Source of the DNA: Sphaerolaimus hirsutus
Taxonomy: Eukaryota; Nematoda; Chromadorea; Monhysterida; Sphaerolaimidae
NCBI GenBank assembly: GCA_964036195.1
Contig: OZ038458.1
Coordinates: forward strand, 22,085,832-22,149,831
Reading direction: 5' to 3'
DNA length: 64,000 bases
In this document: piece by piece, positions 15,912 through 62,620 of the stretch
How positions within the stretch are numbered: position 1 is the stretch's first letter
Layout of the letters: every line of letters starts with the position of its first letter
Program-made: the position numbers and the translations under genes
Notes under the pieces: generated by a model
Database searches by the model: none
The model's input: the letters and a program-made list of their open reading frames with translations, nothing else
What the model was told of the DNA's origin: nothing

Positions 15912-18512
15912 ACTCTCAGCGCAAGTCAACTCTCACAGCAACTCATCTACTCTCACAGCTCCATATACATATCTATCTGAGCTAAACCGTCCCGAGGCAA
16001 CATTTTCGGGTAGTATATAAACATCGGACACGCCAGGTCCGGCACCTACTTTCTGAGTCGGTGCTGGGCGCCATATCTCCAGCTGTAGTGGGTATTTATT
16101 CGAAATTTTTAGGGTATATACTCGAAACCTCCCCCCCCCCCCACTACTATATACGGGCTAGGGAAGATCGGCGACCTACCTGAGTGTGGGTCGCCTATAG
16201 ATAAATATTTTTTATGAAAAAATCGTTGTTTAAGGGAGGTCCGGCACCCCGTATTTTTTCATATAACGGCTGCCAAACTAAAACTGTTGGGGGAAATTGA
16301 TCGTAATTTTGAGGGGGTGTTGTACACGACACTCCCCACTACTTTACACGGTAAATTAAACCCACTGGCGACCGCCCTGAAAGTGGGCCATTGCAAAATA
16401 AACTGATTTTTTTTGGAAAATTCACTGTCCAAGCCAGGATCGTCACTGGACAGTGAAAATAAAATTTTCCTTAGAAAAAGTCCCCTAGAGTATACCAGCA
16501 TAAAGGGTGTACATACAAAAAGTATTACAAAATCAAAATTTCATCTGGTACTTGTGTATTCTTTTTCAACATTACACAAGTTACAGATTAAATTTCGAAG
16601 TAAAGTCAAATTTTTTATATACTCAGTAGACATGATACTTTACAAATAGATATGATTTATGTCTTCAGCTGGCAGACAGCCAACCGAGGACTTATGAACC
16701 GACTCCCCACAAAAAGTTAAAATATGGGGAATCCATCGTTCAGTCAGCCGCAGTTCTCTGTGGACTGCGGCTATGTAGGGATGGCCAAAAAACGTTTTTT
16801 TAACGCCCCTGTTTTTGTTTTTTTTTTAAATGGGTTTTTTAAAAGCTCCCAGATATGGTCATGGGTCAACATATACAGGTATATCAAACAATTGCCAGTA
16901 CTTTGTGATGTCCACAGAATGGCTGTGGAGCCGTGGGATAGCATTATAAGTGGTGATTTCTGTCAAAAATATCCTTTTATTGACTTGTTACGTATATCAC
17001 CTTTTGTTGAATGTTCGTGACTTCAAGTCAAGTTTTGCATGGAATAGCACTTATATAAGGTAATAATCTAAGGCTCATCCATTGACAGTGATGGATCACA
17101 CTGTAGAAGTATGTGGGATTACACTGGCTGGATATTATATGCTACACTAACATATCACGGCTTATTATGACACAATAGCATGAACAAATGAAAGATTTAA
17201 CACTACAAATGCCTCGAAACCAATGACAACAATTACCAATGGTAAAGTGTATGTGAAATTGCGCGCTTGCGCACAAAAAAATTGCAAAATACCTAGTACA
17301 TAGTACAAAAACTTTTGGCTCATTTTTAATTTGAAAAAAACGGTTTCGATGCCTGTTTAAAAAACAACGTTTTTTTTAAAAACGGTTTAAAAAACAACGG
17401 CCATCCCTACGGCTATGATCTCAGAATGGAGTGGTTCCTCCGGAAAAATGTAGGGTGTAAATGTCGCCAGAGTATACACACTTTCAATGTTGGTTTACGA
17501 TGTCCTCTGCGAGACGATTTAAGGTAAAAATTGGCATAAACCACTTAGCTCCAAAAATGGACCACCGTGGCGGCGATTCAATGGGGGTCACTGTAATGAT
17601 GTCATCGATGACATCAATGCAGAAACAAAATTAGCTTGCGGGACATCATTACAGTAACCCCCATTGAAACTCCATGGTGGTTCATGTTTGCGCATTTTTA
17701 CCTTAAATCGTCTCACAGAGGACATTAAACCAGCAAACCAGCATCAAAAGTGTCCATTAAAAATTTGACAAAACATCGAAATTTAATCTGGAACTTGTGT
17801 AGGGGTGAAAAAGATATACAAGTACCAGATGAAATTTTGATTTTGAAATACTTTTTTTTATATGCACACTTTTTATGCTGGTATACATTGTTCTCTAGGG
17901 GACTTGATTTTGGCTTAGACAGCAAATTTTCCAACCAAAATCAGTTTTTTCTGCAGGGGCCCACTTTCAGCAGGGTCGCCAGTGAGGTTAATTTTCCGTG
18001 GCAAGTAGTGGGGGAGTGTCGTGTACACCCCCTCAAAATTTAGATCAATTTCCCACAACAGTTTTAGTTTGGCAGCCCATTATAAATATGAAAAAAAACA
18101 CGGGGTGCCGGACCTCGCTTGAACAGCGATTTTGTCAAAAAAATATTCATGTATACGGCGACCCACACTCAGGTAGGTCGCCAACCTTCCCCAGCCCGAA
18201 TATAGTAGTGGTGAGTTTCGAGTATGCCCTCATAATTTCGAACAAAACCCCCACTACAGCTGGAGGTAGGGCGTCCGGCACCGACTCAGAAAGTGGGTGC
18301 CGGACCTGGCGTGCCCGCTGTTTATAACCCTACACAATCGACCAGCTATCGATCTATCTGGACTGATTTTTGAGGAATTGTACCCGCTCCAAATCGCTAA
18401 TTTTCATACCTGTGTATAGTTTTTGCCTATTTGTAACTATTATGACCGGAGTTTTCACGAAACCCCTGATTACTTGCGCTGAGAGTTAATTTGCGCTGAA
18501 ACACATGCCCGT
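15912..18512. repeat. Giant foldback with ACTCTCAGCGCAAGT terminal words
   Basis: Outer words (ACTCTCAGCGCAAGT on the left; GCGCTGAGAGT on the right) flank long inverted arms. Arm landmarks are CGCCAGGTCCGGCACC near 16025 and its inverse near 18305, a GGGGGAGTGTCGTGTACA segment and CATATCTCCAGCTGTAGTGG. The centre lies near 17630. The left arm is split by the hAT-like element at 16776-17409. Several arm motifs are shared with 7951-9406. Confidence 0.75.
16776..17409. mobile_element. hAT-like element, TAGGGATGGCC ends, 8-bp duplication CGGCTATG
   Basis: The ends are TAGGGATGGCCAAAAAACG and inverted GGCCATCCCTA. CGGCTATG flanks both sides (16768-16775 and 17410-17417), a perfect 8-bp duplication typical of hAT transposons. 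The subterminal word is AAAAAACGTTTTTT. The core is shared with the elements at 61944-62620 (reverse orientation) and 51629-52924. It has no transposase ORF, so it is non-autonomous. Confidence 0.92.
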
Positions 18513-18711
18513 TGACATTGAGGTGGGATGTCAACTGGACCGACTGGCTTGCATCCAGACTTTAGTTGATGGGTCGCCAAACCATGTTCAAACGTAAATA
18601 CATACCAATACTAATTCATTTTGCACATTGCCGCAGGTGCAGTTACAAATTGTGCTGCGAGTGGCAGGCTTGGACCTGTCAACTAGAATCTGAGTTGACA
18701 TGTGAGCAGTT

Positions 18712-19020
18712 GAAAGGTGTACTTCTAAAAGTACCGCTTCTAAAGTGCTTCTAAAAATCTACAAATTTTTCAAATTTGAGTTAGGACCATTTTTGGGGTC
18801 CCCATAAACATGCGCTTCAACAAATATATAATATGTGGGGGGTGCGAAATTGATTGATTATACCCATGCATGTGGATACCCAACAATACGGCCGAAATGT
18901 CCATACCCAAAATTCCCATACCCAATACCCATGTATGGGTATTGCATACTCCAAACTTTCAATTGCGATTATCTTGAAATCGATTTTTTGTAGATCGGTA
19001 CTTTTAGAAGCACACCCTTC
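18712..19020. mobile_element. Family F element, short copy, 4-bp duplication AGTT
   Basis: The ends GAAAGGTGTACTTCTAAAAG and inverted CTTTTAGAAGCACACCCTTC are flanked by AGTT at 18708-18711 and 19021-19024. It lies within a GTTGACA-type foldback. It is shorter than 14224-14906 and partly inverted inside. Confidence 0.85.
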
Positions 19021-19054
19021 AGTTGCCCCGAGTGTGGCAGTGCCATCGGGCCAG

Positions 19055-19170
19055 GCTCATTATGCACAGAAACCCGTTACGCACACGCGCCCGTAACGCA
19101 CATAATCAAAACCCGCCACGCACAGACGCCCGTTACGCACACAACTGGGCCCTGTGCGTGGCGGGCTTCT
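19055..19170. repeat. Word array: CCCGTTACGCACA
   Basis: Repeated ACGCACAGAAACCCGTTACG-like words invert around GGGCCC (TGTGCGTGGCGGGCTTCTGT). A related array with ACTCGG in place of CCCGTT lies at 19938-20081. Confidence 0.7.
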
Positions 19171-19260
19171 GTGCGGTGGGTCCCCAGTCGGCCATCTGAG
19201 TTCAGGATTTTCATGTGTGTTGAAGTAGTTGACACCTGATATTTCATCAACTGTTTAGCC

Positions 19261-19788
19261 GGAATTAGAGCTCAGCGTCAGTTCGACGTGAAATGACGAC
19301 GTGAAATGATGTCGTGAAATTAACTACACGAGTGTGGATCATGCTACGGGTCTACAATTTTCTAAGGATAATATATGAATCAATACCTTAATCATGTCCA
19401 ATACTGAGTGTTATCACCCACAACTAGAGCGAATTGAAAAATTCAATTTTTATCATTTCACGTCATCATCATTTCACGTCACAGTGTCAGGGAACAACTT
19501 GACATTTCACGTCAGACTATTGCAAGCAGCAGTCTGACGTGAAATGTCAAGTTGTTCCCTGACACTGTGACGTGAAATGATGATGACGTGAAATGATAAA
19601 AATTGAATTTTTCAATTCGCTCTAGTTGTGGCTGATAACACTCAGTATTGGACACGATTAAGGTATTGATTCATATATTATCCTTAGAAAATTGTAGACC
19701 CGTAGCATGATCCACACTCGTGTAATTAATTTCACAACGTCATTTCACGTCATCATTTCACGTCGAATCGACGCTGAGCTCTAATTCC
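19261..19788. repeat. Near-perfect 528-bp palindrome with ACGTGAAATGA word
   Basis: The arms of about 260 bp are inverted copies, ending GGAATTAGAGCTCAGCGTC and its inverse. Repeated ACGTGAAATGATG words lie at the ends and centre. The arm core (GGTCTACAATTTTCTAAGGA, then ATCAATACCTTAATCATGTC) resembles the palindrome at 1021-1504, whose word is CGTAAAATTCC. Confidence 0.88.
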
Positions 19789-19937
19789 CGCTTTACAGCT
19801 GTTTTCTACATATTTTACATTCGCAATCACGAAAGTCAAATATGTAGAAAACAGATATAACGGGTGGCAAAATTTCGGGTGTCAACTACTGCTACATAGG
19901 GAATAGAATAGAAGAGAATGTGAAAAATCACACAAAC

Positions 19938-20081
19938 TTTGTACGCACAGAAACTCGGTACGCACAGAAACTCTGCACGCACATGGCATCAGCTATGTGC
20001 GGGCCGAGTTTCTGTGCGCACCGAGTTAACTTCTGTGCGTAACGGGCTTCTGTGCGTGCCGAGTTTCTGTGCGTACAGCTA
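19938..20081. repeat. Word array: TACGCACAGAAACTCGG
   Basis: Tandem TACGCACAGAAACTCGG words invert to CCGAGTTTCTGTGCGTA. The array ends about 70 bp from the donor site of the GAA1 exon at 20152. Confidence 0.75.
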
Positions 20082-20151
20082 CAGGCTCGTGCCATCGCCT
20101 GTGTTCATGCGGCGCGGGCCACTGGCGCTCGCGGATCAACTCGCTGCGCAC

Positions 20152-30324: not shown

Positions 30325-30975
30325 TAGGGTTGGCAAGCAATTTTTAAGCGATTTAAAAAAAAATCTGATGTTTTTTTTAAATTGCAGCCAGATTTTAAAA
30401 AAAATCGCTGGGGTAAAAATTTGGTACTCATGCACTAGGTAAAATCCACCTTTTGCATGCACGCAGTTTCATGCAAGCAATCCACCAGTTGCTTTTTTCA
30501 TGGCTTTTACAAGCAATTTGGTGGTGTAGCACCCATTTCTGTGTGCTTTTAAGCATGTAAGGAAGGCTGTGAATCATGGGGGGGGGGGGTAGTATACATT
30601 GTTTTGCTATGTGTTTTCATATCAAACATGAATGGAATTGCATCCACATTCACTTCAAAAATGATTTTTATTGTGTTCTCAGCAAAAACATGCAATTTCT
30701 GCAAACAAAATTGCATATGGTCGATGGAATTTTATTCATGCAGCAAAAACGACAATTTTATTACTTTTAAACTTCAAAATAACTGATTTCAAAGCTCTTC
30801 CACAGCTCTACAGTACTTATATTACCGTAGAAAGAATAACTGTGCACTGCCTATCAATTTACATGTCTTGTATTACCCTCAGAGGCGATTTTCGAGATAA
30901 ATGGGACTAATTTTGACCCCAGCGATTTTTATAAAAAAAGAGTCTTTAAAATAATCGATTTTTACCAACCCGAGT
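30325..30975. mobile_element. hAT-like element, TAGGGTTGG end, 8-bp duplication GTCACACC
   Basis: The left end is TAGGGTTGGCAAGCAATTTT; the right end is CCAACCCGA, one base from a perfect inverse. GTCACACC flanks both sides (30317-30324 and 30976-30983). The subterminal words are AAAAATCG and CGATTTTT. Next to them is a core with ACTCATGCACTAGGTAAAAT shared in diverged form with 61944-62620 and 16776-17409. Confidence 0.9.
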
Positions 30976-31060
30976 CACACCACAAAAATAATCTTGACTA
31001 ACCACTTAAGCAGAGCACTTAGCACTTTACCCATACGTGAGGCACTTTAGGAATTGGCAC

Positions 31061-31182
31061 CAGCTCCAATCACGCCATACACATTGACGCCAGGCCGCCC
31101 TGCCGCCGTGAAGTTTTGCATGTACGCATCAGCGCCCAATTCAGTCAGGGTTTGCATCAGCCACGAGTTTCGTTCCCATGGA
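31061..31182 (-). CDS. GPAA1: GAA1 exon (WLMQTLTELG, NVYG)
   Basis: The exon is 122 bp: one base, 40 codons, one base. It encodes PWERNSWLMQTLTELGADAY and GRPGVNVYGVIGA, matching human AWLERTMRSVGLEVYTQSF and GTNVYGILRA. The acceptor is a run of C followed by AG/TCC. The donor is GCTG/GTGCCA, which lies in the left duplication and first bases of the inserted element. The upstream exon, which must end in phase 2, was not found. Confidence 0.92.
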
Positions 31183-31771
31183 CTGGGGGGGGGGGGGTAT
31201 TTGGGCAATTATTTGTGTGTGTAGAAGTGATTTGCGGGATTGTATTTGTCACGGTTTTGTTTGTGTTTTACTGTTCTTTTTGTGTTTGTAAATATTTGTG
31301 GTATTAATTGTAGAGAACCACAAAACCTGACCGAAGGTCAGAGAGAATCCCGCTAGTTCTTTATAAAGTGCGTGCGGCCATGTGTGTTATCGACTGAGAC
31401 ATAAATAGTTTTGGCATACTGGCAGTCCAACGAGTATACTATCCCCTGAACTCCGCCCCCTCCCCCGCCCCACTCGCTCAGCTATTTATCTATACGCATC
31501 AAATTTTGAGGGATGTTACCCTTTCCTTCAAAGTCACTAATTTTCCAACTTTTTTTGCCCATTTTCGCCTTGAAAATGGCTAGTTCATGTAAGATTACCT
31601 TATTGCTTATTTTGTCCTATTTTTGGTATCTGTATATGTATGTATCTAAATATACATACTATAGAGCGACAAACACGCCAATTAGTGTATTTTTATGGTG
31701 AAGTGAGTGTACGAGGACATCATATACATTCAAGACGGGGTGTATTACGAGGGGGGGGTATTACACTACCG

Positions 31772-32352
31772 CAGGGGTCTCCTAGGGGGGGGGGGCTGCC
31801 CCCCCCCCAAATCGGCCAGCTATCTATCTATCCCGGAGGCCGCTCAGCTATCTATCTATCCCGAGGCAAAATGTTTGGCTACTACCCCCAAAGACCCCCC
31901 CCCCAAAATCGGCCAGCTATCTATCTATCCCGGAGGCCGCTCAGCTATCTATCTATCCCGAGGCAAAATTTTTGGCTACTACCCCCAAAGACACCCCCCA
32001 AATCGCTCAGCTATCTATCTATCTGGAGTGGTTTTTGAGAAATTTTGCCCTAATTTTCGCTCAAAATCACCAATTTTCGCACCTTTTTATAGTTTTTCAC
32101 CTTCAAAATCGTGCTTTCCGGCTATATACATGGTTATATACCTATTTTTAGCCATTCTATACCTACTTTTGGCTACTTTTAACTGATTCTTAGCGATTTT
32201 TTCCTCTTTCTGCCTTCTTAACCTTGAAAAAGCCTTTATATTGTGCCCCCGCCAGCCCCCCCCCAGAAATTTTTTTCAGCTATCTATCCCTCCGAAGGAG
32301 CGATTTGCTATCTATCCAGCCCCCGCGAGGGCTAAAATCCTGGAGACCCCTG
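31772..32352. mobile_element. hAT-like element, CAGGGGTCTCC ends, 8-bp duplication CACTACCG
   Basis: The ends CAGGGGTCTCCTAGGGG and inverted TCCTGGAGACCCCTG are flanked by CACTACCG at 31764-31771 and 32353-32360. The interior is made of CAGCTATCTATCTATCCC words with C runs. It landed in the extreme end of the family G element. Confidence 0.93.
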
Positions 32353-33061
32353 CACTACCGTGCAGAATAGATGAGACTTTTTGCGCTGCATGATTAATGT
32401 TGCCAGAATTTCAAAATGGTCTATATGCAAAACATTTGGATACCATACATGGGTACCCTTGGGGGGTTGACTACACATGCCCGGGATGACTGCCCCTCGA
32501 GTTCAAATCTGTGTATATTCCTAGTGTACAAACATTAACTCAGTTTGTTCAGGTTTCAGAATAGTTGAGACTTTTCTTGTTTTGGGCAGCAGCCACCCAG
32601 TATCTCACTTTAAAGTCTATATCCAATTCCGATGTTCATTTTTTAACAAAATTTTTACCATGGCAACTGCTTGCCTGCATTGCTGAGCTCTGTGTGCAGC
32701 AAGAAACATTCTAAGCATGAACTGCATATGGCAATGCATATATGGAAATGTGGCATATATTTATTTTTGCTGCAGTTTTGCATCCATTGCCAGCAACTCA
32801 GAAATGGGGGTAGGCATACTACTGAGTGGGGCTATTTGGTGTGTAAATTTGAGGTTTTGGCTTTGCTCTATTAGGGAGAAAAGTTGGCCCAGCTGTGAAT
32901 GAGTAATGTGCAATTATTTTGGATGGAATTATGATGGAAGTTTGTAAGTGCTATAACTTTTGATTGGGAAGAGATATTGAAAAATTGTTTCTGTCATATT
33001 AATTCTCTGTGTCTTAAGTATGTTATAGACTGTTCAATAACAATATTTTCATGCTGCCAAC

Positions 33062-33864
33062 TAGGGTGGCAGAATTTACCGTACCGTACCGTACCGTACC
33101 GCATTTTTGGAAAAATTACCATACCGTACCGTACCGTTTACCGCACTTTTAGAAATTTACCGTACCGTACCGCGTACCGCATTTTCCAAAATTTACCGTA
33201 CCGTACCGCGTACCGCACTCATTTACCGCGGAAAATGCGGTAAATTTTACTCAGATTGACTTTAAAAATGCACCTTAAAATTTACTTTAAAATGTGGTGT
33301 TCTGCAAATTTTTTGCGCGCAAGCACGCAAATTTGACAACATTGTTTTGACTGATTTGAAGCTCTTCCATTTCCACATGCAATATGGCTGCAACTCTTCA
33401 TTTACATGGCTTTACATGGAATTCATGGCTCATTGCCATGTGCACTTATATACTTTTTTACCATTTTCACCCACTTTTGGCAATTTTTCACCCACTTTTA
33501 GCAATTTTTCTCCATTTCTTTCTTCTAAACCTTGAAAAAGCCTATATATTGAACCACTGCATTGTGGTTAATGTAATTCTATGTTATCACACTGTTATTG
33601 TGTTCTAAAGTCCATTAACACTTTGCATAATTCAATTTAGTGTCAATTCATGAAGTAAAAGTTGTCTGTAGTCCGGCATTGGTACATTTCTGGCGAGCGA
33701 AAAGTTACCATACCGTACCGTACCGTGAACCGCACTTTTCAGATTTACCGTACCGTACCGTTTACCGCAAAATTGAAGATTTACCGTACCGTACCGTTTA
33801 CCGCAAAAGAGAAAATTTACCGTACCGTACGGTTTACCGCAAGCCCGTACCGTCTGCCACCCTA
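33062..33864. mobile_element. hAT-like element, TACCG word, 8-bp duplication CTGCCAAC
   Basis: The ends TAGGGTGGCAGAATTTACCG and inverted GTCTGCCACCCTA are flanked by CTGCCAAC at 33054-33061 and 33865-33872. Subterminal blocks are runs of TACCG separated by TTTACCGCA and short spacers. The core holds TTTTTTGCGCGCAAGCACGC, as in related elements. The peptides readable here are products of the TACCG array. Confidence 0.93.
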
Positions 33865-34444: not shown

Positions 34445-34762
34445 TAGGGTTCAAACGGGATCCCGATCCCGAATCCCGAGAAATTTCGGGATTTTGTGGT
34501 CTCGATCCCGATCCCCGAGAAATTTCGGGATTTTGTGGTCTCGATCCCGATCCCGTAAACTCAATCCCGATCTCATCCCGAAATTTGAAAAAGCCAATCC
34601 CGATCCCGAGATTTTGAAAATCCCAATCCCGATCCCGAAAAAAATGCCCCAATCGCGATCCCGGAAAAATTCACAGACACAAAAGGTGCCAGAAATGGTG
34701 CCAGAAACGAAATCTCAAAAATTCAAGCCCGATCCCGAAAAGTCAATCCCGTTTGAACCCTA
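34445..34762. mobile_element. hAT-like element, GGGATC word, 8-bp duplication CTCAAACC
   Basis: The ends TAGGGTTCAAACGGGATC and inverted ATCCCGTTTGAACCCTA are flanked by CTCAAACC at 34437-34444 and 34763-34770. The whole interior is ATCCCGATCCCGA-type words. Confidence 0.95.
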
Positions 34763-40572: not shown

Positions 40573-40874
40573 TATTGTGTCAAATTTGCGTTTTTTGTTT
40601 CCGCTTTCCGCAGGCAATTTTTTTCCATTTTCCGTTCTGTTTTCAGGCAAGTGCAAAAATTTTTCTGTTTCCATTTCCGTTTTCCGGCAAGTGCAAAAAA
40701 TTTTCCGTTTCCGCTTTTCAGTAGGCAAAATTCTTTCCGTTTTCCACATTCCGCAGGCAAATTTTCTTCCGTTCCATTTTCTGGCGAGTGCAAATATTTT
40801 TCCATTTCCGTTTTCCGGCAAGTGCAAAAAATTTCCGTTTCCATTTTCTGTAAAAAAAATTTGTTGAGACCCTA
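40573..40874. mobile_element. hAT-like element, TTTCCG word, 8-bp duplication GCCATGGG
   Basis: The right end reads inverted TAGGGTCTCAACAAATTT; the left is the diverged TATTGTGTCAAATTTG. GCCATGGG flanks both (40565-40572 and 40875-40882). The interior repeats TTTCCGTTTTCCGGCAAGTG. It is nested in a CACACTAGTTTTCAC foldback whose right end is near 41105. The reading frames here come from the word array. Confidence 0.9.
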
Positions 40875-43644: not shown

Positions 43645-46600
43645 TTACCATTTTTTGAACCAGTCCACGTTTCCTTGTAATTGCTTTTCCAGAAATTTGC
43701 CAATTTTCACCCTGTGCGGACCGCAGCGTTCATTCGATAAGAACCATGACAATGGTGGTCCGGCGTCGATGAGGGGTGGGGCTGGGGCTGCGGGGGGTTC
43801 ACAAAGGCAATTTTTGCAATTTGTTAGTTTTTCGCGCGCAATTTTCAACGCCGATTTCTGACAAGACACCAAAATGTGTCGCACCGTGATCGTTGACGTC
43901 TTACCGAGACACATGCAAATTGGCAGTTTGCCACTATTTACGTTAAAATGTAGCGCCCGCCAGCGCGCCTGTACCCACAATTTGTGGCCTCTCAGTACTG
44001 ACCCAGCGTTCAAAGTATCCGAAACCAGCGATTTTGAATTTTCCAGTTCACATTTTCGGTGATTTCTTATGAAAAAGAGTTTTCGGATGTTTATTTTTGT
44101 CATCCCCAGCAAATGTGCGGTACTCAATCCCATTTTCGAGGAAATGTCAGAAACGATACTATGTAACGCAAATTTCATTTGGGGTTTATTTGCGCTACTT
44201 TCCGATTGCAGAATTTCCGCCCGGTAAATCAATCTATCCTTATTTACACTATTCACATATTTCAGAAATTTTACCCTTAAACAATCCAACCGCTCTTCCA
44301 TTTTGACCAATGAGTAACAATCTGCCCTTAAAGCTGCCTCACTCGTGGAGCGAGGCATTCCAAGTGCATCCCTAATTGATCTATACTGAATTTTTGCCAA
44401 CTTTTTCACGCAACTCTCAATGTTTCCCGATACATCTAAGCCAAATATTACCACCGGTTCCACATAAATATTCCAAATTTTGATCGCAAAGTCAACCGGT
44501 TTACTAGTTTTTCGAGCACCTAATTTAACAAGTGAGGATAACCTGGACGCTTTTTCAATTGCATTCATTTTGTGCATTTGATACGCGTCCGGTTTACTAC
44601 ACAATGTAACACCTAAGTATCGCACGTGATCAACTTCCCTGATTGTCAGGTTTTTCCTGTTCTCATCATAGCCAAGTCGCCAAAATCTGGGCGTCGATTT
44701 CGCGCCAAATCGCAGTATTGCACTTTTATTTTCGTTCACGCCAATGTTCCAATTCCAACTCCATTGACTGAAAATGTCCATCTGGTCCTGCAAATTTGAC
44801 TCGTTATTGGACAAAATACAAATATCATCAGCAAAAAGGAGGCAGGGAACTCTAAAATTTTCCGAAAGTCGCGCACCACAATTTAACGAGTTTAGAAGGA
44901 GCGGTAAATCTAGGATGTAAATTAAAAAGAGGGTTGGACTGAGAGTGTCACCCTGTTTTACACCCATTGGGTAGTTCATCAATTTTGATTTTGATTCGTT
45001 GAAGTGCATTTCACATTTCATTCCATTATAAGCATTTTCCAAAATTCTAATGAATTTGGTTGGGAAGCCAAAATGAGACATTTTCCACCATAATTTTTCT
45101 CGAATTACTCGGTCAAAAGCTTTCGTAGCATCAACAAAACATCCAATTAACCGACCTTTATTCATCTTGGCAAATCTTAAACACCCGTTTATTACCAACA
45201 AATTGTCCAATGTCCGCCGATTTTTACGAAAGCCCCCTTGAAACTCACCAAGGGCCCCCGATAATTCCAAAACTGCTAAAATGCGAGTGTTCAAAATCGT
45301 GTGAAATAGTTTGATTATGTTGCAGCCCAACCCAAGTGTCCTATAGTTTAAAATGTCAGAAGTATCCCCCTTTTTGTGGAGAAAAATCATTTTCGCAATT
45401 TTTGAGGATTCTGGGTAGCTACCACCTTCTAGTAGACTGTTGAAAAACTTCATCAACTTAGTCAAGTACACATCCGGAGCCAATTTTAGATATTCGTGCA
45501 GAATGTCTGTAGTTCCGGCCGATTTTCCCGATTTCAACTTTTTTAAAGCCCTTTTTATTTCCCCAGTATCAATTTTTCTCAAAAGCGACGTAATATCGGT
45601 CCCATTTTCATGCAAAATGTCCTTACCGACCGCATAATTTTCCGGAACCGACGTGGCGCCGGGATTTGGGGTCATAATTGTCTCCCATGCGCGGGAAAAT
45701 TCAGTATCATAATCTCTATCAGATGAAACAATTTCACCCACAACATTTTTCAGCAAAAAAGTCTTTATCGGTGCACTTTTAATTGTTGACATCCGTTTAT
45801 ACAGCCTGTTGATAGCATATTGCGGATCGGCTGTTGACTTTGAAATGAAATTTTCGTCATTTTTAATACACAATTTTACGCGATGACTTTTCAGAAGCGC
45901 CCTCTGAAGGCGCAGTTCTCCCAGTAAATTTTTCTCGAGTCGTTCAGAGTTACACCGTCTCAATTTTCGGCGCAATTTTCCTATTTTTCTACATAATTTC
46001 CGAGTTTTCAAATCGCCATGAATTTTCCCGTCGCATCGGTCACCATTCAAATTTACCGAAGCACTTTCGACCAAAATTTCCACCAAGTCAGAATGACTTT
46101 TGCCCTTAGATTCACATAGTTCAACCACTTTATCTTCAAATTTTTCATTTTTTTCTGTGTCAGAAAAATTCCATTTTGGGATTATTTTTCCCGATTTTTT
46201 TGGCTGAAAAACACTTTCTGACATCTCAAAATCAATTACCAGTGCCATGTGGTCACTATTGAAATAGCTTTTTTCAGCGTTAATGTCAATGGCACCGCTT
46301 GCATTTTTAGAAATCAAATCCGTGCACAGGCAAAAGTCGATTGCTGAGCGACAAATGCCACGTGTATAAGTCCAGGGACCGTTTTTCAATGCTTTATTTA
46401 CCAAAACCAACCCTGTTTCTTCAATCCAATTTCTAATCAATCGACCATTGTCGTTGATATCGGCATTGTTGTTTGGTATCCCCAAATCATCACAGCCAAT
46501 GTGTCCATTCAAATCGCCAACCACAATAACCTCTTCACATCTATGCGTGTGGAAATTTATTAACGAAGTCATACAATTTAAAATGTGCGCATTCAAATCT

Positions 46601-49089
46601 TTTATTTGACTACTTTTCCTCACTTTGCTATTATTTTCCAAATAGACCACTAAAACGAAAATGTTTTTTTTTTCTGAAATCTTTACACAAATTCTCATTA
46701 AATGGGATTTAATCGATGCACTCACATTTCCAAAATCCGCATAAGCACAATTCAATCTATTCTTACAAAAAATCGAAATCCCACCTGCATTGTTACCCGT
46801 TTTAAATCGACTGAAGACATTATACCCCTTAGTGGGGGGTATGTCAGCGTTGGATTTGCATTGGGTCTCAACTAGCGCCAAAATATCCGGCGAATTATCA
46901 ATCAGTGTATCCAAAAGTTTTTCCGTGTTTGTATACATCGAATGAATGTTTTGATAAATGATTGATAAGCATATTGATGCAGTAATTGAGGGGGGCACGG
47001 TTTTTCCAATGTCAATAACATCCGAAGCTGATGCGGAATGCAAAAATGCCATGAAAGTTATGCCAAATAGCCAGCATCGAACCATTTTCGATGATTTATT
47101 CAGACAACAAATCAATCTCAAAACTGATTTTTTTGCACCAAATAGTTGCAATAAAAATGATAATGATAAATGCAGCGCCGATTGCTGCGTAAAACTGCAA
47201 AATGGAAAAGACGTTATTATCAAAATTTCCATCAGTGTACTTGCTCCAAACGCGTTTAAACATTTAAAACCCGCCACCAACATTTTGATTCCCAAATCAC
47301 AAATCAAATTTCGCGATTTCAAACCACATAAATGTGCCAAATTTCTCTCAATCGCTATCAACGCTTGGATCCACTTTGAGTTTGCGCTTGATTGAGGAAC
47401 GCGCCTAGTGAAGTGGGTATTCAATTTCGCCAACAAATTTTTAATTGGAAAATTTTGTTTTTCGATACATCTCATTACATCAAAAATGTAGTTCAAATCA
47501 TTTCTCCAAATCGTAAAGTGTCCCATCTCATAAAAAATCAACATACCGAGCGCTCCGGCCATAATATTCTGCCAGACGGATGGGTCAATCTGCGGCATAT
47601 TGGCCGCAGGCGGGACGGAGTTGGTGGCAGTGCGCATAGCATGCCCAGATGACTCCGCCCCTTGCGAAGCTGAGAAATGCACAGTTTCGGCCACATTTCC
47701 AGTGCGTTTTTTCGATTTCGCCCGTTTTTCAGCGCCATTTCGATTGAATAATGTCTGTAAATTATGCATTTTCACCATAAATTCACAAGTTAAATTTTCC
47801 AAGAATGAGATAAAATCATATGCAAACCTATCAATGACTAAATCGCACATCATTCTCGATATAATTTTATCAAAATTTTGAGAATTATGCAGGCCATCAG
47901 GCTTGCAACAGTGAAGGTATAAATTCGCCGAATTTTTCATTGCGGAGCCATCATGTGAAAAATATTCGAAATAGCTATTCACAAAAGTTATGGCCGGTAA
48001 AATTTTGACGTTAGAAAGATCGGCCAAGTAGTCTGTTAGAAAAGTTTCAACTGTCTGCCCAAATTCGATCAGTTCAATTAGTAAACCAGTGCTAGTAATG
48101 TTTTTCATATGGGCCGGTAAATACGGCCCCACAACACTCAAAATAATCTCGCTTTTCATATTTCCATTTCCGGCTAGCCAATTTTGAACTCTGGCCATGC
48201 CCCTTCTCAATGGGTCGCCAAAACGTGACTTCAAATAGGCGTTTAAATCGAGTGGCTTAATGTGCGATTCGTCGAGCTCTAAAGCCGCATAGTCCAAAAT
48301 CCCTCTGATTATGACAAAGTCAAAGCCACCATGCGACTGAATCATGTCAAAAACAGCCAGCATTATGTCCAGACGTTTTCCATAGTAGAGTTTGCCAGTG
48401 TGATGGATAGTAACAGAAATACCGCATTTGTCAAACCAGCTGAAAGAATTTTTGGTAATTTTTGAGGTTTTTTTCGAGTCAGTAAAAAGACTAAAAAGTT
48501 TTGTATGAATATCGAACCATTTCAATTCAAACGGCAGTCGAAAAATTGTGCTGTCACCAACAATTAGTATTTTCACATAAATACCATTGCCTTTTTGCTG
48601 TGATAAATTATCCATCAGAGCTGGCTCATTGCCAAAAATTTGAGAACGTCTGGGCAGGCTGGGACACCAATTATCTCCCAGCCCCATTTGCCGCAATAAA
48701 TCATAGCATGTTTGATCGCGACCATGTATTTTAGCAACTGTGCGCCCCTCCAAGCAGTGCCAGGAGCCGCACACAAAACCAGAGAGTATCGAGCTGCATA
48801 AGCTTCTCACACTAGCCGGCAGGTCATTTACAGTCAACAAAGTCTGGTCAGCCCCCCAAACCGGCTGCTGCCTGTCCTGGTGCCGCGCAACATGCTCAGT
48901 GTGGGCCATACGGGAACCATCTTTCTCGCCCACCACTAAAATAGAAGTGTCTAGCGCTTTGGGCGTGGACTGCATGGGCGCCGGGGGTGTTGTGACAGTG
49001 GAAACAGTTGAATTGTGTGTCAACGGCAAGTGTGTGACACCCTCGGACTCCAAACTCTGCGCGAATTTCGTCTGAGTGGAGCATAACAT
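43645..49089 (-). CDS. LINE ORF2: SGNH-like domain + endonuclease + reverse transcriptase (1814 aa)
   Basis: Domains in order. Residues 170-430 are SGNH-hydrolase-like, with ILIVGDST at 175-181 (nucleophile S180) and PDGLHNSQ at 397-404 (D398, H401). A basic stretch KRAKSKKR lies near 455-462. A hydrophobic segment occupies 670-685. Residues about 708-955 are an APE-type endonuclease with QNIHS (N714), VETQ (E741), VVGDLNGH (857-863) and SDH (945-947). Residues about 1180-1500 are reverse transcriptase with FVDATKAFD (1318), GVKQGDTLSP (1376) and FADD (1419-1422). A C-terminal zinc-knuckle-like CMC-x10-H-x4-C lies at 1725-1743. The frame is fully open. The clade is not resolved; C-terminal knuckles of this kind occur in several EN-bearing LINE clades. 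In CR1-type elements the esterase is usually in ORF1, so its position here is unusual. Confidence 0.93.
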   Translation of the reverse strand: MLCSTQTKFAQSLESEGVTHLPLTHNSTVSTVTTPPAPMQSTPKALDTSILVVGEKDGSRMAHTEHVARHQDRQQPVWGADQTLLTVNDLPASVRSLCSSILSGFVCGSWHCLEGRTVAKIHGRDQTCYDLLRQMGLGDNWCPSLPRRSQIFGNEPALMDNLSQQKGNGIYVKILIVGDSTIFRLPFELKWFDIHTKLFSLFTDSKKTSKITKNSFSWFDKCGISVTIHHTGKLYYGKRLDIMLAVFDMIQSHGGFDFVIIRGILDYAALELDESHIKPLDLNAYLKSRFGDPLRRGMARVQNWLAGNGNMKSEIILSVVGPYLPAHMKNITSTGLLIELIEFGQTVETFLTDYLADLSNVKILPAITFVNSYFEYFSHDGSAMKNSANLYLHCCKPDGLHNSQNFDKIISRMMCDLVIDRFAYDFISFLENLTCEFMVKMHNLQTLFNRNGAEKRAKSKKRTGNVAETVHFSASQGAESSGHAMRTATNSVPPAANMPQIDPSVWQNIMAGALGMLIFYEMGHFTIWRNDLNYIFDVMRCIEKQNFPIKNLLAKLNTHFTRRVPQSSANSKWIQALIAIERNLAHLCGLKSRNLICDLGIKMLVAGFKCLNAFGASTLMEILIITSFPFCSFTQQSALHLSLSFLLQLFGAKKSVLRLICCLNKSSKMVRCWLFGITFMAFLHSASASDVIDIGKTVPPSITASICLSIIYQNIHSMYTNTEKLLDTLIDNSPDILALVETQCKSNADIPPTKGYNVFSRFKTGNNAGGISIFCKNRLNCAYADFGNVSASIKSHLMRICVKISEKKNIFVLVVYLENNSKVRKSSQIKDLNAHILNCMTSLINFHTHRCEEVIVVGDLNGHIGCDDLGIPNNNADINDNGRLIRNWIEETGLVLVNKALKNGPWTYTRGICRSAIDFCLCTDLISKNASGAIDINAEKSYFNSDHMALVIDFEMSESVFQPKKSGKIIPKWNFSDTEKNEKFEDKVVELCESKGKSHSDLVEILVESASVNLNGDRCDGKIHGDLKTRKLCRKIGKLRRKLRRCNSERLEKNLLGELRLQRALLKSHRVKLCIKNDENFISKSTADPQYAINRLYKRMSTIKSAPIKTFLLKNVVGEIVSSDRDYDTEFSRAWETIMTPNPGATSVPENYAVGKDILHENGTDITSLLRKIDTGEIKRALKKLKSGKSAGTTDILHEYLKLAPDVYLTKLMKFFNSLLEGGSYPESSKIAKMIFLHKKGDTSDILNYRTLGLGCNIIKLFHTILNTRILAVLELSGALGEFQGGFRKNRRTLDNLLVINGCLRFAKMNKGRLIGCFVDATKAFDRVIREKLWWKMSHFGFPTKFIRILENAYNGMKCEMHFNESKSKLMNYPMGVKQGDTLSPTLFLIYILDLPLLLNSLNCGARLSENFRVPCLLFADDICILSNNESNLQDQMDIFSQWSWNWNIGVNENKSAILRFGAKSTPRFWRLGYDENRKNLTIREVDHVRYLGVTLCSKPDAYQMHKMNAIEKASRLSSLVKLGARKTSKPVDFAIKIWNIYVEPVVIFGLDVSGNIESCVKKLAKIQYRSIRDALGMPRSTSEAALRADCYSLVKMEERLDCLRVKFLKYVNSVNKDRLIYRAEILQSESSANKPQMKFALHSIVSDISSKMGLSTAHLLGMTKINIRKLFFIRNHRKCELENSKSLVSDTLNAGSVLRGHKLWVQARWRALHFNVNSGKLPICMCLGKTSTITVRHILVSCQKSALKIAREKLTNCKNCLCEPPAAPAPPLIDAGPPLSWFLSNERCGPHRVKIGKFLEKQLQGNVDWFKKW

Positions 49090-49134
49090 TTTTATTGTGG
49101 AAAAATGGCAAAAAAGTTCAAATTCAATTTTATT

Positions 49135-51628: not shown

Positions 51629-52924
51629 TAGTGATGGAAAAGCGCCATGGCGCTAGCGCCAAAGCAAAAAGCGCCATGGCGCTTTTGGCGCTTGGCGCCA
51701 TTTTGCTGTGGCGCTATTGGCGCTTGGCGCTGTGGTCCTGAAAAGCGCCCTGGCGCATTTGGCGCTTGGCGCTATTTATCGGTGGCGCCTGGCGCTGGCA
51801 TTTAAAAAGCGCCACCAACAGAGGCAGTGAAAAAAGCACAGCGTTCACATATAAAAAAGTATATCACACAAGTGATTACATGAAGTTACTACGTTAATAG
51901 TGAAGATGAGTACTTTGTGATGTTACACAAATAGTATTTGAATGGGTGTGGACTGTGGAGCATTATAAGTGGTAATTTCAGCCAAAAATCTGTTGTAAAT
52001 TGACTCGTTATGTATTATACCATCTTATTGAACCTTTGCATCTTTCTTTAAAAAAGTCATCCTTAAAAAAATGTTGAATGATGATGAAATTGAAAATTGT
52101 ACTAGAGATGTTTCTAGGAAATGGATGTTTGCATTTGAATTCTGGGAGCACCCTAAACCACAGAAGTGTTGCCTAGGTTGTACAAAATTGCTCCACATTT
52201 ACTCACAATTCCAGCTAGTACTGGGGGGGGGGGGGGGTTATTGCAGGTGTTCAGCATGTCTAAAGATGTATTTGGTATGAAACATAGTTGTAAAAGATTT
52301 TACGTTTATTCAAAAAATATGTATACTCAAGTATGTAAATATGTTTACATTTCCTCTAGCATCAGGAACAAAGAAAAATAACTAGTGAATTTGATGGTGA
52401 AAATGGTCAAAAAGGGATGTAAATTAGTCATTTTGGGCAAAAATGGGGTAAAATTTCTCAAAATATACCCACTTTTACATTTTAAAGAAAATAAGTACTT
52501 TTAAACACATTTACTCATGAGTAAAAGTAAAAAATTGTTTACATTTTCTGTACTTAGAGGGTGAGTACTTTTTTACCATTATTTTTACTTTGAAAAAGTC
52601 CAGTACTTTTAACAGCTCTGGTGTGAAAAGGGATTGGTTCTGTGCTGATGCATTGGAATTCTGTACAATTATCAAATACATCATCAACTATTTGTAAGAT
52701 GTTTACTAGGAATGCTTTTTTGGCTATACATAATTTGCATAGTGCTAGTGTGTTTTACGAAGTGATATAGTTCACACAAAGTGATAAAAATGAATATACG
52801 GAACTGAGAACTGCGTCCGCATTATAACAAGCAAAATCATTTTGGCGCTGGCGCTATTGGCGCTTGGCGCCGTGGTCTAGAAAAGCGCCATGGCGCCGAA
52901 AGTCTGGCGCTTTTTCTATCACTA
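51629..52924. mobile_element. hAT-like element with GGCGCC word (TAGTGATGG ends)
   Basis: The ends TAGTGATGGAAAAGCGCCAT and inverted TGGCGCTTTTTCTATCACTA are present, with arrays of TTGGCGC and GGCGCC inside both. The core segment GAGCATTATAAGTGGTAATT and following sequence resemble the core of 16776-17409. The flanking 8-bp strings (GACATGAC, GGTACAAT) do not match, so assignment rests on the ends and core. It interrupts the same MITE A copy as the LINE. Confidence 0.75.
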
Positions 52925-57795: not shown

Positions 57796-58995
57796 CCATT
57801 AAATGACAGTGAAAACAATGTAAACTCGGGTTACTTTATGCCAGTCAATTCTGCTGACCGTAACCCATGCATGACGTCATTTTTGGAATTCGGCCAAAAA
57901 TAAAAAATCGGTAAAATAAAATGCGCAATGCAAACGCGAATTCGGTTGTTATAACGTCGATCAAAGTTTCAGTATACAATTATACAATTATTTTAACGTT
58001 TGGAACGTTGGCAGAACAAAATGGAGGGTTTAATATTGTAAAAAGGTAAAACGCACAATAAAATGATGAAATCATCGCATGTCTCAAAGTCGATGAACTT
58101 TTTGCTATAAATTTTGTATACAAGTTAGGTACGATTATTTCAGGTACAGTTAGGTTAGGTTAGTTTAGGTACAGTTAGGTACGATTTTCTTTATTTCGAA
58201 TTTGAATGGACTGTTTTCATTTGGTTCTTTGTTTCTTTTATTCGGTCTGACCTTTTACTGTGAGAGAAACCAATGTACTTCTTTTTGGAACAGTGCCAAA
58301 GTGATTGTGGCATATGTTTAGGAAGACTTTTGTCGCGTTTTGTGGACTGTTTCATTCCACAAAATTGTCTAGTGAAAAGTCAATCACATTTGAACCCTAC
58401 CAAGGATCAAAATAGTACAGAAATGAGAACATCTGATAAAACGGTGAAAATTTTGGTTCTGAATTTAAAAAAAATTTGTTCTGGAAGTGCGGATATGGGT
58501 TTAAAAATGTCAACAAGAGCTTGGAAAGAAGGTCATGTTGGGTATATCAGAGGAAGTGGTAGTAAATACTTATAATGTAAATGCAATTTTCATCCTTCAA
58601 ATGCATTGTGTTGATAAGATATTACGTACTACACACTGAAATTTTGAGTTATGCATTCACACGTTCTTTTGATGCAGAACTACAAATTATGAGATGTGAA
58701 ATCTAGATAATGGAAACCAGTATAAGAAAAAAATGTTAGGCTTACATGCAAATTGATTTTAGACCCAGGAATTCTTTCCTTCAAACGTTTTTAGTGGGCT
58801 GTTTTTAATCTAAAAATGAGAGGTTCAGATAGATATGTATTGTGCTTCTGTGGTGTCCAAAAAACGTTCCAATGCACAACTCAAAACTGCTGTGTGTGGT
58901 GTGACAAACGGTGACAAAAACACACATTCAACACAGAAACTTGATGATTTTCAAAAACTTGAATGAATGGTAACAGGTGGGAGAGACGTGCCAGT

Positions 58996-59489
58996 CAGGG
59001 GTTTCGAATGGGGGTGGGGGGGGGGGGGGTTGGAGGGGGGATAACCCCCCCCAAACCACCCAGCTATTCATCTATCCTGGAGGCAGAATTTTTGGCTACT
59101 ATGTCCTGAACACCCCTTCCCCCCAAATCGCCCAGCTATCTACCTATCCAGAGTGATTTTTGAGAAATTTTACCCAAATATTTGCTCAAATCGCTTCTTT
59201 TCATGACTTTTAATAGATTTTCACCTCAAAAATCGCTAGTACATGTTCATTATTGCCTATTTTCAGCTATTTTGGCTATATATGTGCCTATATACCTATT
59301 TTAAGCCATTTTTCACATGTTTTTTGGCGATTTTTCTCCCTTTTCTTCCTTCTACACCCTAAAAGCCTATATATTGAACCCCGCGAACCAACTCCCCTTC
59401 CCCAACCCCCCCAGACAAATTTTTAGCATCTATCCCTCCGGAGGAGCGATTTGCTATCCATCCAACCCCCCTGAGGGTCGATGCCCCTG
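58996..59489. mobile_element. hAT-like element, CAGGGGTTTCG ends
   Basis: The ends CAGGGGTTTCGAATGGGG and inverted GGTCGATGCCCCTG are flanked by GTGCCAGT and GTGCCAGC (seven of eight identical). The interior is CAGCTATTCATCTATCC-type sequence shared with 28402-28915 and 31772-32352. Confidence 0.82.
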
Positions 59490-59689
59490 GTGCCAGCAAA
59501 TATTTATTACTTTTTTGAAAACTAATTTTCTGGTAAATACATGTTTAGAAATTCAACCTCCGCTACGTATTTAGACAATTTTGACAAGAGGAAATATTTA
59601 TAATGCAATTTTAGAATTTTTTATTATTATTGAACAGCATGCAATGCAAAAACTGATCTTTTTGGGGTTTTATCATTGAATTTAAGTAG

Positions 59690-60376
59690 GGTTCGGAATC
59701 ATTCCTCCAGACGGACAGATAACTGAAAAAATTGATGTTTTAGGCGGGTTGCAGGGGTTATATGTTAGCCTTTTTCAAGTTTAGAAGACAGAAAATGGTG
59801 AAGTATTGCTGAAAATAGTTATACAAGCAGATAAGCCAAAAATAACTGAAAATATGCAATAGGACACATGAACTAGTTAATTTCAGCAATTTTTGATACT
59901 ATATGTCCTTATAAACCCATTTTTAGCCATTTTTCATCTACTTTTAGCGATTTTTTTCCCTCTTCGCCCTTACACACTTAGAAAAAGCCTATGTATTGAA
60001 CCCTTGCGAACACCCTCTCCCCCCCCCGATAAATTTTCAGTTATCTATCCCTGGGGAGAAGCGAATTGCTATCCATCCTAGGGTTCAAACGATATCACTT
60101 TTCGATATCGATATTTGATATTTTTTCAAAATTTTCGATATCGATATTCGATATTCGTTATTTTGTTCTGAAACTAGATATTCGATATCGATACAATATG
60201 GAACCTCGATATCGATATTCGATATTAAGAAATGGTCGATATTCGATATTTGATCTTTTTTCAAAATTTTCGATATCGATATTCAATATCAAAAAATGGT
60301 TGATATCCGTAATTCAATACGATATATCGTTTGAACCCTAATCCATCCATGCTAAATCTAGGAGACTAGTGGTTTC
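59690..60376. mobile_element. Diverged CTATCTATCC-type element carrying a nested hAT-like element
   Basis: The interior (ATTTTTAGCCATTTTTCATC, TATTGAACCC, TTATCTATCCCTGGGGAGAA) matches 58996-59489. The right end ATCTAGGAGACT is a decayed terminus. The 60079-60340 element sits inside it. Confidence 0.6.
60079..60340. mobile_element. hAT-like element, GATATC word, 8-bp duplication ATCCATCC
   Basis: The ends TAGGGTTCAAACGATATC and inverted GATATATCGTTTGAACCCTA are flanked by ATCCATCC at 60071-60078 and 60341-60348. The interior is TCGATATCGATATTCGATAT words. The terminal 13 bases equal those of 34445-34762, whose word is GGGATC. Confidence 0.95.
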
Positions 60377-60385
60377 TACATTTTG

Positions 60386-61573
60386 TCTTCTTTGCCAAAT
60401 ACCTGCCCTGCCAAGAATGCTCCCTCTAGCGCTGTCCCCGAATTTGAGGTTTTCATTAGGGATTTCCAAATATTTCCCACGTGAAAAAAATGTATGTTCT
60501 TTTCCCATGCTGCAAACGCATTTTCAAACATCCGGACTGTTTCGGTTAAGCAGTGTAATTCAGCTAGTGTCTAAAAAGTATTCACTAAATTCAGAACTTT
60601 CTGTTTCCGTGTACCTGGCAGCATATGGAATATAACTTAGTCCATGCATATTTCAGGATTTTGGCATGATGCCAAAACGTTTTTTCTATAAATTGAGTCA
60701 CACACAGTGGAACATATATCCACCGGACTGCTAACCACTAAGATCCAATTCGTGTGGTGTGACATCAAAATTTCGCTCAAAATTTTGTGCTGTACATTTC
60801 AATCAGTAAAAGTATATCGGCCAAGAAAATCAAAACAAAAATGATTACTCACCCATCATTTTTCTTGTTACATTCCGTCGGAATAAGCGCATATTTGGCA
60901 TAAATGAGTTTGTTTTTCATTGTAATTAATGGGTAATGGTACTCCTAAAAAAGCAGAAATGGGACATTAACTTGCTTAGTTGTCTCATTTGAGCGTTTTT
61001 AGGATTTAAAACACATTCAACCCAATATAAATAATGCTGTTCAATAAATGTTAGCAATGTTAAGTGAATTAGTTATTTGCAATGAAGTTAGCGCGATTAA
61101 ATACCCCCCTCGATGCTGAATAGATGTCCGAGCTTGCAGTAATGCCCAGCAAGACAACGGGCTAGGGAAAAAATTTTCTTTTTTATTTCTATTTTTATTT
61201 TTATCGGCAGTCGGAACTTATGTTTCGCCTCAGTCGACGCTCAGCGAAGGGAAACATAAGTCAAACAACACTGATTCGTTTCATGTAAGTCGAGTTTAAT
61301 GTTGTGAAAAAATAGTTGATTTTGTGCCACTTATTCAGATGGGACATGGTACACAGATGGGACAGATTCCACAGTGGCACACATATTATAAGCGATCGAT
61401 CTGTAGCGGTGTGGTCTCTGTCCAACAGAAACATGTAAACTAGTTGTGAGAGGTTTGTGAACGAGTGTATTTCAGTGCACACACATGCCTGTTGAAAACA
61501 GTGTGTGCCTATACCCACAACATACTCATTTCACACTGCCTGTCTGCCCCTGCTTTGGTTCACTTGTCTCAAT
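60386..61573. other. Unassigned sequence
   Basis: No gene or clear element is seen. A short inverted repeat at about 61209-61260 (GGAACTTATGTTTCGCCT against GGGAAACATAAG) is noted. Confidence 0.4.
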
Positions 61574-61896
61574 TAGCGTTCCAAAAACGGGTGTTTTTCA
61601 GAAAATATACTTAAATATAATCTAATTATATATAAATATAAAATAAAATAAAATCGCTCTAGGAAAATGCAGATAAAATATAAATGAATTTGGAAAAATA
61701 TAAATGATAGTTTTTTTATATTCTCTTATCATAAAATAAATATAATTAAGCAATTTTCAACATCAAAAAATATATGAAGTCTCTCTGAAAAACAAGGATA
61801 AAATCATATTAGGAGAAATAATAGGGGAATATTAGATTTGTTAAAAAAATTTTATATTGAATAAAATATAAATCTCCCAGGATATTTGGAACGCTA
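61574..61896. mobile_element. hAT-like element, TAGCGTTCCAAA ends, TATAAATA word
   Basis: The ends TAGCGTTCCAAAAACG and inverted TTTGGAACGCTA are flanked by GTCTCAAT and GTATGAAT (six of eight identical). The interior is almost entirely AAATATAAATAAAAT words, similar to those inside 21283-23218. Confidence 0.8.
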
Positions 61897-61943
61897 GTAT
61901 GAATACAAATCGTGTGTGTGCAGTGCGCCTGTGTAGGTGCAGT

Positions 61944-62620
61944 TAGGGATGGCCAGCGCTTTTTTTCAAGGGTTTTTTTTTATAAAAACGCCGCTTTTTT
62001 TAAAAAAAAAGCGCTGGCAAAAATTTTTGTACTTGTGCACTAGGTATTTTGCAATTTTTCGCGCGTGAGCACGCAATTTCACATGCAAATTGCCATTGGT
62101 GGTTGTTTTCATTGGTTTTGTGGCATTTTTGTGCCATTGCTTCTTTTCCTGCATGGTATCATGTTATAATAAGTTGTGATATGTCAGTCTAGTATATAAT
62201 ATCCAGCCAATGTGCTCCCACATACTTCTACAGAGTGTAACATCACTGTCATGCATTAGCCTTCTCTTACAACGTTATTTAAGCACTTTTCCATGCCTAA
62301 CTTCACTAGAAGTCATGAAACATACACAAACAGCGATATACATAACGAGTCAACATAAAATTGGATTTTTGTGGCAGAAATTAGGACTTATAATGCTATC
62401 TCATGATTACACAGCAATTCTATGGCTATATATCATCACAAGTACTACCACTTGTCTGATATACCTGTATATATTGACTCAGAACACTATTTGGGAACTT
62501 TTTAGGTACCGTCTTGACATTTTTTGAAAAAAAGCGAAAAAAGCGCGTTTTTTAAAAAAAAAGCGCTTTTTTTTAAAAAAAGCGGGGTCGTTAAAAAAAA
62601 GCGCTTTTTTTCCATCCCTA
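61944..62620. mobile_element. hAT-like element, AAAGCGCTTT word, 8-bp duplication GGTGCAGT
   Basis: The ends TAGGGATGGCCAGCGCTTTT and inverted AAAAGCGCTTTTTTTCCATC then CCTA are flanked by GGTGCAGT (61936-61943 and 62621-62628). The core (ACAGAGTGTAACATCACTGT, AATATCCAGCCAATGTGC) is the reverse complement of the core of 16776-17409, although the subterminal words differ. Confidence 0.95.

Follow-up and report, generated by a model that had tools for sequence, protein, structure and literature searches.

The window, a stretch of 64,000 nucleotides from the nematode Sphaerolaimus hirsutus (C14:22085832-22149831 of the 348-Mb genome), contains seven elements with a perfect 8-bp target-site duplication and TAGGG-type inverted tips, plus one partial element at 51629. 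By duplication, tips and subterminal motif, the seven elements (262–803 bp) and their kin are members of the hAT superfamily. Each family repeats a short word of its own inside both ends, and between sister families this word is changed in register at the outer slots that can be aligned. The elements are probably for the most part non-autonomous miniature inverted-repeat transposable elements (MITEs) of several sister hAT lineages, with words that would have been rewritten through co-evolution with the DNA-binding domain of the transposase. The elements of the window are the following.

16776..17409, minus strand: hAT-type MITE of the AACGTT word class, TAGGGATGGCC ends, target-site duplication CGGCTATG.
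30325..30973, plus strand: hAT-type element with ATCGAT/AGCGAT words, TAGGGTTGG left end, TCGGG right end, target-site duplication GTCACACC.
33062..33864, plus strand: hAT-type MITE with TACCG arrays at both ends, TAGGGTGGCAG ends, target-site duplication CTGCCAAC.
34445..34762, minus strand: hAT-type MITE with the CGGGAT (=GGGATC) word, TAGGGTTCAAACG ends, target-site duplication CTCAAACC.
40573..40874, plus strand: hAT-type MITE with the TTTCCG word, changed left end TATTG, target-site duplication GCCATGGG.
51629..52060 (end approximate), plus strand: partial element with a TAGTGATGG left end, a GGCGC array at approximately 51640-51810 and a core segment like that of 16776.
60079..60340, plus strand: hAT-type MITE with the CGATAT (=GATATC) word, TAGGGTTCAAACG ends, target-site duplication ATCCATCC.
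61944..62620, plus strand: hAT-type MITE of the AGCGCT word class, TAGGGATGG ends, target-site duplication GGTGCAGT.

Elements in the window and their abundance

All seven perfect duplications listed in an earlier note on this DNA were found, including that of 40573, for which the note had described a diverged left end. By sequence comparison, 40573 resembles other TTTCCG elements. Short inverted tips of the TAGGG/CAGGG type are present, and two tips in the window deviate, namely the right tip of 30325 and the left tip of 40573. The word array of 30325 is a mixture of ATCGAT and AGCGAT forms. The 16776 element is a homologue of 61944 in the opposite orientation, with 77% identity over 518 bp. 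The core segments said to be common to 16776, 61944 and 51629 are thus present in the first two, and more weakly in the third, where the match to the core of 16776 covers 111 bp at 74% identity. This partial element has a TAGTG end and the array claimed for it, with GGCGC occurring 19 times in 190 bp (mean 3.8 and maximum 9 in 500 shuffles); its right end and a duplication were sought and neither was found, the latter in line with the note. The core of 33062 is separate, except for a stretch over which its family matches 16776 (49 bp).

A first scan of the window also gave a row whose duplication is mismatched, 30716-33264, which looks like a chance match. A stricter scan covered the window and another 200 kb, made up of 10-kb samples from 20 round-number places on nine large contigs. 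It gave 29 rows, 6 in the window and 23 elsewhere, with 40573 failing the end rule. Control scans returned 1, 0, 3 and 1 rows when the duplication was compared at a shifted place, and 1, 0, 1, 0 and 1 rows for five other end motifs. The difference between 29 rows and 0–3 rows indicates that the elements are common, at very roughly one per 9 kb. Chance or a microsatellite artefact is ruled out by these duplication controls and by the word shuffles described below.

The elements show the traits of MITEs, being short and present in high copy (thousands of ends). The best 40 scored copies were 91–97% identical in the CGGGAT family (with the L022 copy as query) and 95–97% identical to the query in a CGATAT family with a TTGGGAC tip, suggesting recent copies in both. 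For the 16776 element, identity was 83–90% in 39 other scored genome copies.

Word arrays are dense and specific to each family

Words were counted over a maximum of 180 bp per end, pooled, and compared with 200 dinucleotide shuffles. The counts exceeded the shuffle maximum in all eight classes tested, for instance 110 for CGGGAT (shuffle mean 9.2, maximum 19), 165 for TTTCCG (13.0, 23), 86 for TACCG (9.4, 18) and 42 for AACGTT (6.7, 15). The repeated subterminal motif was seen at both ends in individual alignments as well as in these pooled counts. Calculated per 100 bp of end, the density was 7.3 words for CGGGAT, 7.4–8.4 for CGATAT, 6.3 for TTTCCG and 8.0 for TACCG, as compared to 0.7–1.0 for AACGTT and 1.3 for AGCGCT. 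An element contains approximately 20–30 exact words in four classes and 3–5 in the AACGTT and AGCGCT classes.

Each word was almost confined to its own family, and the words of foreign families were nearly absent. The arrays that the earlier note had described inside the ends, differing from copy to copy, are thereby confirmed, and a single family with random word drift is ruled out. For the TACCG class, the pattern TAGGGTGKCANNN{0,3}TTTNCCG had 623 matches in the genome and none in the control, and TTTACCG closed 99 of the 100 matches listed (contigs C1 and C2). The length of the array and of the A/T tracts differs strongly between copies, and inside the copy L007_438 the AACGTT unit is expanded over a long stretch. 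Slippage or tandem duplication also alters the length of the arrays.

CCGAACC words define a further class, observed at L021 3955-4776 in an element that has a TAGGGTTGGGACCCCGAACCGACC end and an 8-bp duplication. GGCGCC words were also seen in G-run stretches at L051 (approximately 282-715) and L043 (approximately 950-1330; ends by eye), the former with CAGGGACGTAGCCAGG-like ends, and this word therefore occurs in at least two element types.

The CGGGAT and CGATAT families differ at the word slots

Elements 34445 and 60079 both end in TAGGGTTCAAACG and carry CGGGAT and CGATAT, respectively, which bears out the observation that they have the same terminal bases and different words. The two families have in common the order TAGGGTTCAAACG, word, GACTTTTCG, word, word. 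In majority ends built from four copies of each family, the left ends differed in 9 of 44 columns, with eight of these accounted for by four words that have two variable bases each. These majority-end numbers are restricted to this pair of families; the majority end of the AACGTT/TAGGGTTGG family lost one base in alignment.

Slot contents were counted, in lists transcribed by hand, among the 100 matches listed on contig C1, out of thousands for each genome pattern. The two-slot pattern had 2,899 + 2,785 = 5,684 matches genome-wide and none with the reversed control. Among the 100 matches listed, the slots read GG/GG in 63, AT/AT in 27, GA/GA in one and otherwise in nine, and no GG/AT hybrid between the two slots of one end was present. 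Facing ends gave a similar result, with 16 GG/GG, 14 AT/AT and one AT/AC among the 31 pairs in the matches listed for a one-slot pattern, and no GG/AT hybrid. Thus, the slots of an end agree with each other, and so do the two ends, among the matches listed. The one-slot pattern had 7,288 + 7,277 matches genome-wide (control 37 + 31). The CGATAT word was also found with the TTGGGAC tip, in 11 of 100 matches listed, and TAGGGTTGGGACGGGAT had no exact match anywhere in the genome.

The stretch at C1:5015400-5015430 reads TAGGGTTAAAACGGAATTTACTTTTCGGAAT, with CGGAAT in both slots, which may be a third member of the CGNNAT series.

The AACGTT and AGCGCT families have homologous cores

Homologous cores were found in 16776 (AACGTT, TAGGGATGG tip), in the TAGGGTTGG/AACGTT family and in 61944 (AGCGCT, TAGGGATGG tip), with approximately 71–81% identity between classes. 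The ends of this group align slot by slot, and spacers such as TTAACGACC are kept between the first and third slots. The frame TAGGGNTGGNNAAAAANNNNTTTTT had 2,609 + 2,553 = 5,162 matches genome-wide and none in the controls. Among the 100 matches listed, the TAGGGTTGG tip was followed by AACGTT in 65 and by ATCNAT in 10, so that the combination of the TAGGGTTGG tip with this kind of word in 30325 is a recurrent one, and the TAGGGATGG tip by AGCGCT in 7 and AACGTT in 2, with other slots in 16. One flank letter was mistranscribed in this list, with no effect on the class. At the opposite end, an AGCGC first slot was followed by a CGCTT second slot in 15 of 15 cases among the matches listed (by eye). 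The copy L038_5909 (L038 5909-6257) has an AAGGTT word, which is without CpG, and an occasional AACGTT.

The set of elements for the core comparison was compiled by hand from the scan and supplemented by 40573 and 51629. The core alignment omitted the B1-type copies L004_1502, L010, L015, L017 and L018 and the later-found copies at L022, L025, L035, L038, L040 and L042, and the tree also omitted the AAGGTT copy L038_5909, 30325 and the short L031_1493. In the resulting tree of 26 elements, the AACGTT/TAGGGATGG (16 rows), AACGTT/TAGGGTTGG (8 rows) and AGCGCT (2 rows) families were each located on one side of a branch, with supports of 100/99, 100/100 and 99/97. The families required two changes in all, which is the minimum and was reached in none of 200 shuffles; for AGCGCT alone, 12 of 500 shuffles were as low.

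The proposal that the word is replaced while ends and core persist is thus partly supported. It stands for the ends and, with respect to the core, for 16776 and 61944 and more weakly for 51629, and the genome patterns agree in two groups. Rewriting by descent is supported. Ongoing swapping of words is not, given the separation of the three families on the core tree and the lack of GG/AT hybrids among the matches listed.

hAT transposase domains adjoin two of the word classes

A search of the genome for the hAT dimerisation domain identified 28 places. Eleven loci, covering 12 of the 28 domain matches, were read as partial sequences. TTTCCG words were found beside the domain at L042 (35 words), L043 (17), L044 (17), L047 (9) and L048 (4); the tip is TAGGGTGTCAAC at L042–L044 and a TAGGGCGTCAAA variant at L047, and the terminus was not reached at L048. 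CGATAT words were found beside the domain at L049 (15 words), L050 (43, with two domain copies) and L051 (15). These three loci end in the tip of 60079, with one base changed in L051, and both the end and the word of this window element therefore adjoin hAT dimerisation domains. Thus, a transposase with the hAT C-terminal dimerisation domain is present, as partial sequences, in two word classes of the window. Two other words accompanied the domain, TTCGAA at L041 (17 words, TAACGATGGC tip) and TACGTTT at L046 (6 words) and L045, the last being a weak case with only two words.

The duplication GTTCTAAC flanks L042 on both sides, and ATCATGCT was found to the left of L041, with the right copy read by eye. 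Pfam confirmed the dimerisation domain at L043, L049 and L041. The proteins of the TTTCCG and CGATAT classes, which represent two TAGGG lineages, were 48–57% identical in the domain, and the other two groups were 23–37% identical to these. The non-autonomous element L023_5255 matches the area around the C-terminus of the CGATAT transposase of L049–L051 in pieces (77–90%), so that it is probably a deletion derivative.

Out of eight zf-BED matches in the genome, six are located within 23 kb (C1:7466186-7488779) and a seventh 0.2 Mb away (C1:7679975), forming a tandem cluster of hAT-type DNA-binding domains on C1 that is perhaps domesticated. Frames of 38 amino acids with one TAA (e.g. C13:14279437 and C4:23783501) belong to a repeated fragment that matches the C-terminus of the CGATAT transposase, with 57% identity in these two, and may perhaps be the remnant of another transposase lineage.

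Internal near-palindrome and neighbouring features

A near-palindrome is located inside several of the elements.

17259..17277, minus strand: internal near-palindrome TTTGTGCGCAAGCGCGCAA, common to several word classes.
33312..33330, plus strand: internal near-palindrome in the TACCG element, 1 mismatch.
62058..62076, plus strand: internal near-palindrome in the AGCGCT element, 4 mismatches.

An internal region had been described as common to 16776, 30325, 33062 and 61944; this description needs to be amended for 33062, which has just the GCGCGCAAGCACGC half of the motif. The near-palindrome TTTGCGCGCAAGCGCGCAA was also seen at L032 6201, L043 338 and L037 9099, in several word classes and in stretches outside TAGGG elements. 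At 43648-49134 on the minus strand, the window contains a long open frame that encodes domains of a reverse transcriptase and an endonuclease, resembling a retrotransposon of the long interspersed nuclear element (LINE) type. An inverted repeat pair beside the 16776 element, at 17480-17740, consists of GGGGGTCACTGTAATGATGTC and its near complement (by eye). A BEL/Pao-type polyprotein was identified by Pfam at L039; elements of this type are not known outside animals, which fits an animal host.

Comparison with known systems

A target duplication of 8 bp is characteristic of Herves, Hermes, Tol2/Tgf2 and Ac-type hAT elements, in which the N-terminal domain of the transposase binds the subterminal repeats, and a subterminal motif is known for Ac. 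These elements resemble the ones described here in having short tips and several copies of a motif inside both ends, with a motif that differs by family (PMC3143072, PMC10368747). They differ in that the families here are sisters in one genome whose outer slots show in-register changes of the word. The approximately 6–8 exact words per 100 bp of end in four classes is a density figure for the present elements alone. The subterminal motif of Herves is CG/AATTCAT and repeats of the motif are sufficient for transposase binding (PMC3143072), and the BED domain of Hermes binds subterminal repeats, AAG(T/C) (PMC10368747). Domains derived from hAT transposases are described as having CGG, GCGC or AT-rich preferences that are mostly unique per protein, and for four hAT proteins the motifs match subterminal regions of their own elements (PMC8097297). 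The diverse words and the match to subterminal regions reported for CGG-binding proteins domesticated from hAT are as seen here; that study approaches the question from the protein side, whereas here the words were read from the DNA side alone (PMC8097297). In the coral CMITEs, the internal region is common and the end module differs, as here, but those elements are of piggyBac type with a TTAA target and differing tips, whereas the present elements keep their tips and vary in the subterminal word (PMC2872659).

Family-specific subterminal transposase sites are thus already known in hAT elements (PMC3143072, PMC10368747 and PMC8097297), and the statement that no described family behaves in this way was too strong. 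The part that may be new is the in-register rewriting between sister families. No description of such rewriting, or of co-evolution or concerted evolution of hAT subterminal sites, was found in the open-access literature as judged by titles and the beginnings of abstracts.

Origin of the word differences

The likeliest interpretation is that the word is a binding site, that the protein changed with the word and that the events followed the order given here. The word would be bound by the N-terminal DNA-binding domain of the transposase of its own lineage, and would decide which transposase mobilises which element. When a transposase lineage shifts its preferred base or bases, the word would be rewritten at the sites, by one half-site base in AA[A/G/T]CG (AACGTT, AGCGCT, ATCGAT) and by two bases in CG[GG/AT]AT. 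During rewriting, the cleaved tip, the spacers and, where comparable, the core would remain homologous. A progenitor with the new word may then amplify to thousands of copies. The rarity of hybrids among the matches listed suggests either that few progenitor copies had undergone the change when each burst began, or that arrays of mixed words are poorly mobilised.

Several observations weigh against co-evolution with the transposase. The transposases are known here from partial pieces, none of them full-length, and in the 12 of 28 domain matches examined none was linked to AACGTT, AGCGCT, ATCGAT, CGGGAT, TACCG or GGCGCC. None of the eight zf-BED matches in the genome is near the fetched transposase pieces, in which no N-terminal DNA-binding domain was seen. 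Arrays beyond approximately 45 bp cannot be reliably aligned, and the right ends of the CGGGAT and CGATAT families differ in 13 of 40 columns, with a less clean restriction to the word bases. The cores of these two families showed no detectable match in the core comparison, so that persistence of the core is limited to AACGTT/AGCGCT and, weakly, GGCGCC. In the core tree, AGCGCT is represented by just two rows and two of the three families share one word. The frame of this group had 16 'other' slots among the 100 matches listed, and one match with AACGCT, in which the half-sites are unlike. The AACGCT form also occurs at L038:3590-4212, where no duplication was seen, and AAGGTT occurs with AACGTT in one copy at L040 from 8890. 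These AACGCT and AAGGTT copies could be intermediates, could have decayed or could belong to additional classes.

Alternatively, gene conversion or recombination may exchange word modules between elements, in which case any core may carry any word. We consider this unlikely. Exchange would fit the finding that one tip can be followed by either of two words (CGGGAT or CGATAT after TAGGGTTCAAACG) and that one word can follow either of two tips (TTCAAAC or TTGGGAC for CGATAT, TAGGGATGG or TAGGGTTGG for AACGTT), as well as the mixed AACGCT form. However, the spacers between the outer words are kept in register, and free swapping of words is contradicted by the core tree, which separates the families (with only two rows for AGCGCT), by the missing GG/AT hybrids, in ends as well as slots, among the matches listed, and by the absence of an exact match to TAGGGTTGGGACGGGAT.

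It is quite improbable that the words are selfish simple-sequence expansions, seeded anew by slippage in each family and without a role in transposition. The strong variation in array and A/T-tract length between copies and the long AACGTT expansion in L007_438 are consistent with such an origin, but every class tested shows an excess of its word in the end regions, and the words adjoin transposase domains and recur in matching slots separated by a spacer. Least probable is that the words are targets of a host factor, such as a transcription factor or silencer, which the elements escape or recruit by rewriting: a CpG in nearly every word class (as we infer; AAGGTT and ATCAAT-type slots are exceptions), the separate near-palindrome common to several word classes and the zf-BED tandem cluster would agree with this, but the words track transposase lineages, the CpG observed/expected ratio of 0.92 in the 200-kb sample gives no sign of heavy methylation, and the known function of hAT subterminal repeats is transposase binding (PMC3143072, PMC10368747).

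Implications for the evolution of hAT elements

Co-evolution of word and transposase, if correct, may be taken one step further, although we regard this step as doubtful. Rewriting of the word could split hAT lineages into mutually deaf systems, in which a transposase escapes thousands of MITEs that parasitise it through the old word, and MITEs with the new word then arise. If so, several rounds of escape would be present side by side in this genome, one set in AACGTT, AGCGCT and ATCGAT and another in CGGGAT and CGATAT. The matched ends of the elements form a natural series, with differences in a few bases per presumed site and thousands of repeats in one genome, and transposase remnants exist for two of the words in the series. 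This would allow asking how the many sites of a DNA-binding protein evolve jointly with the protein, and whether a change of address turns transposons into separate 'species'.

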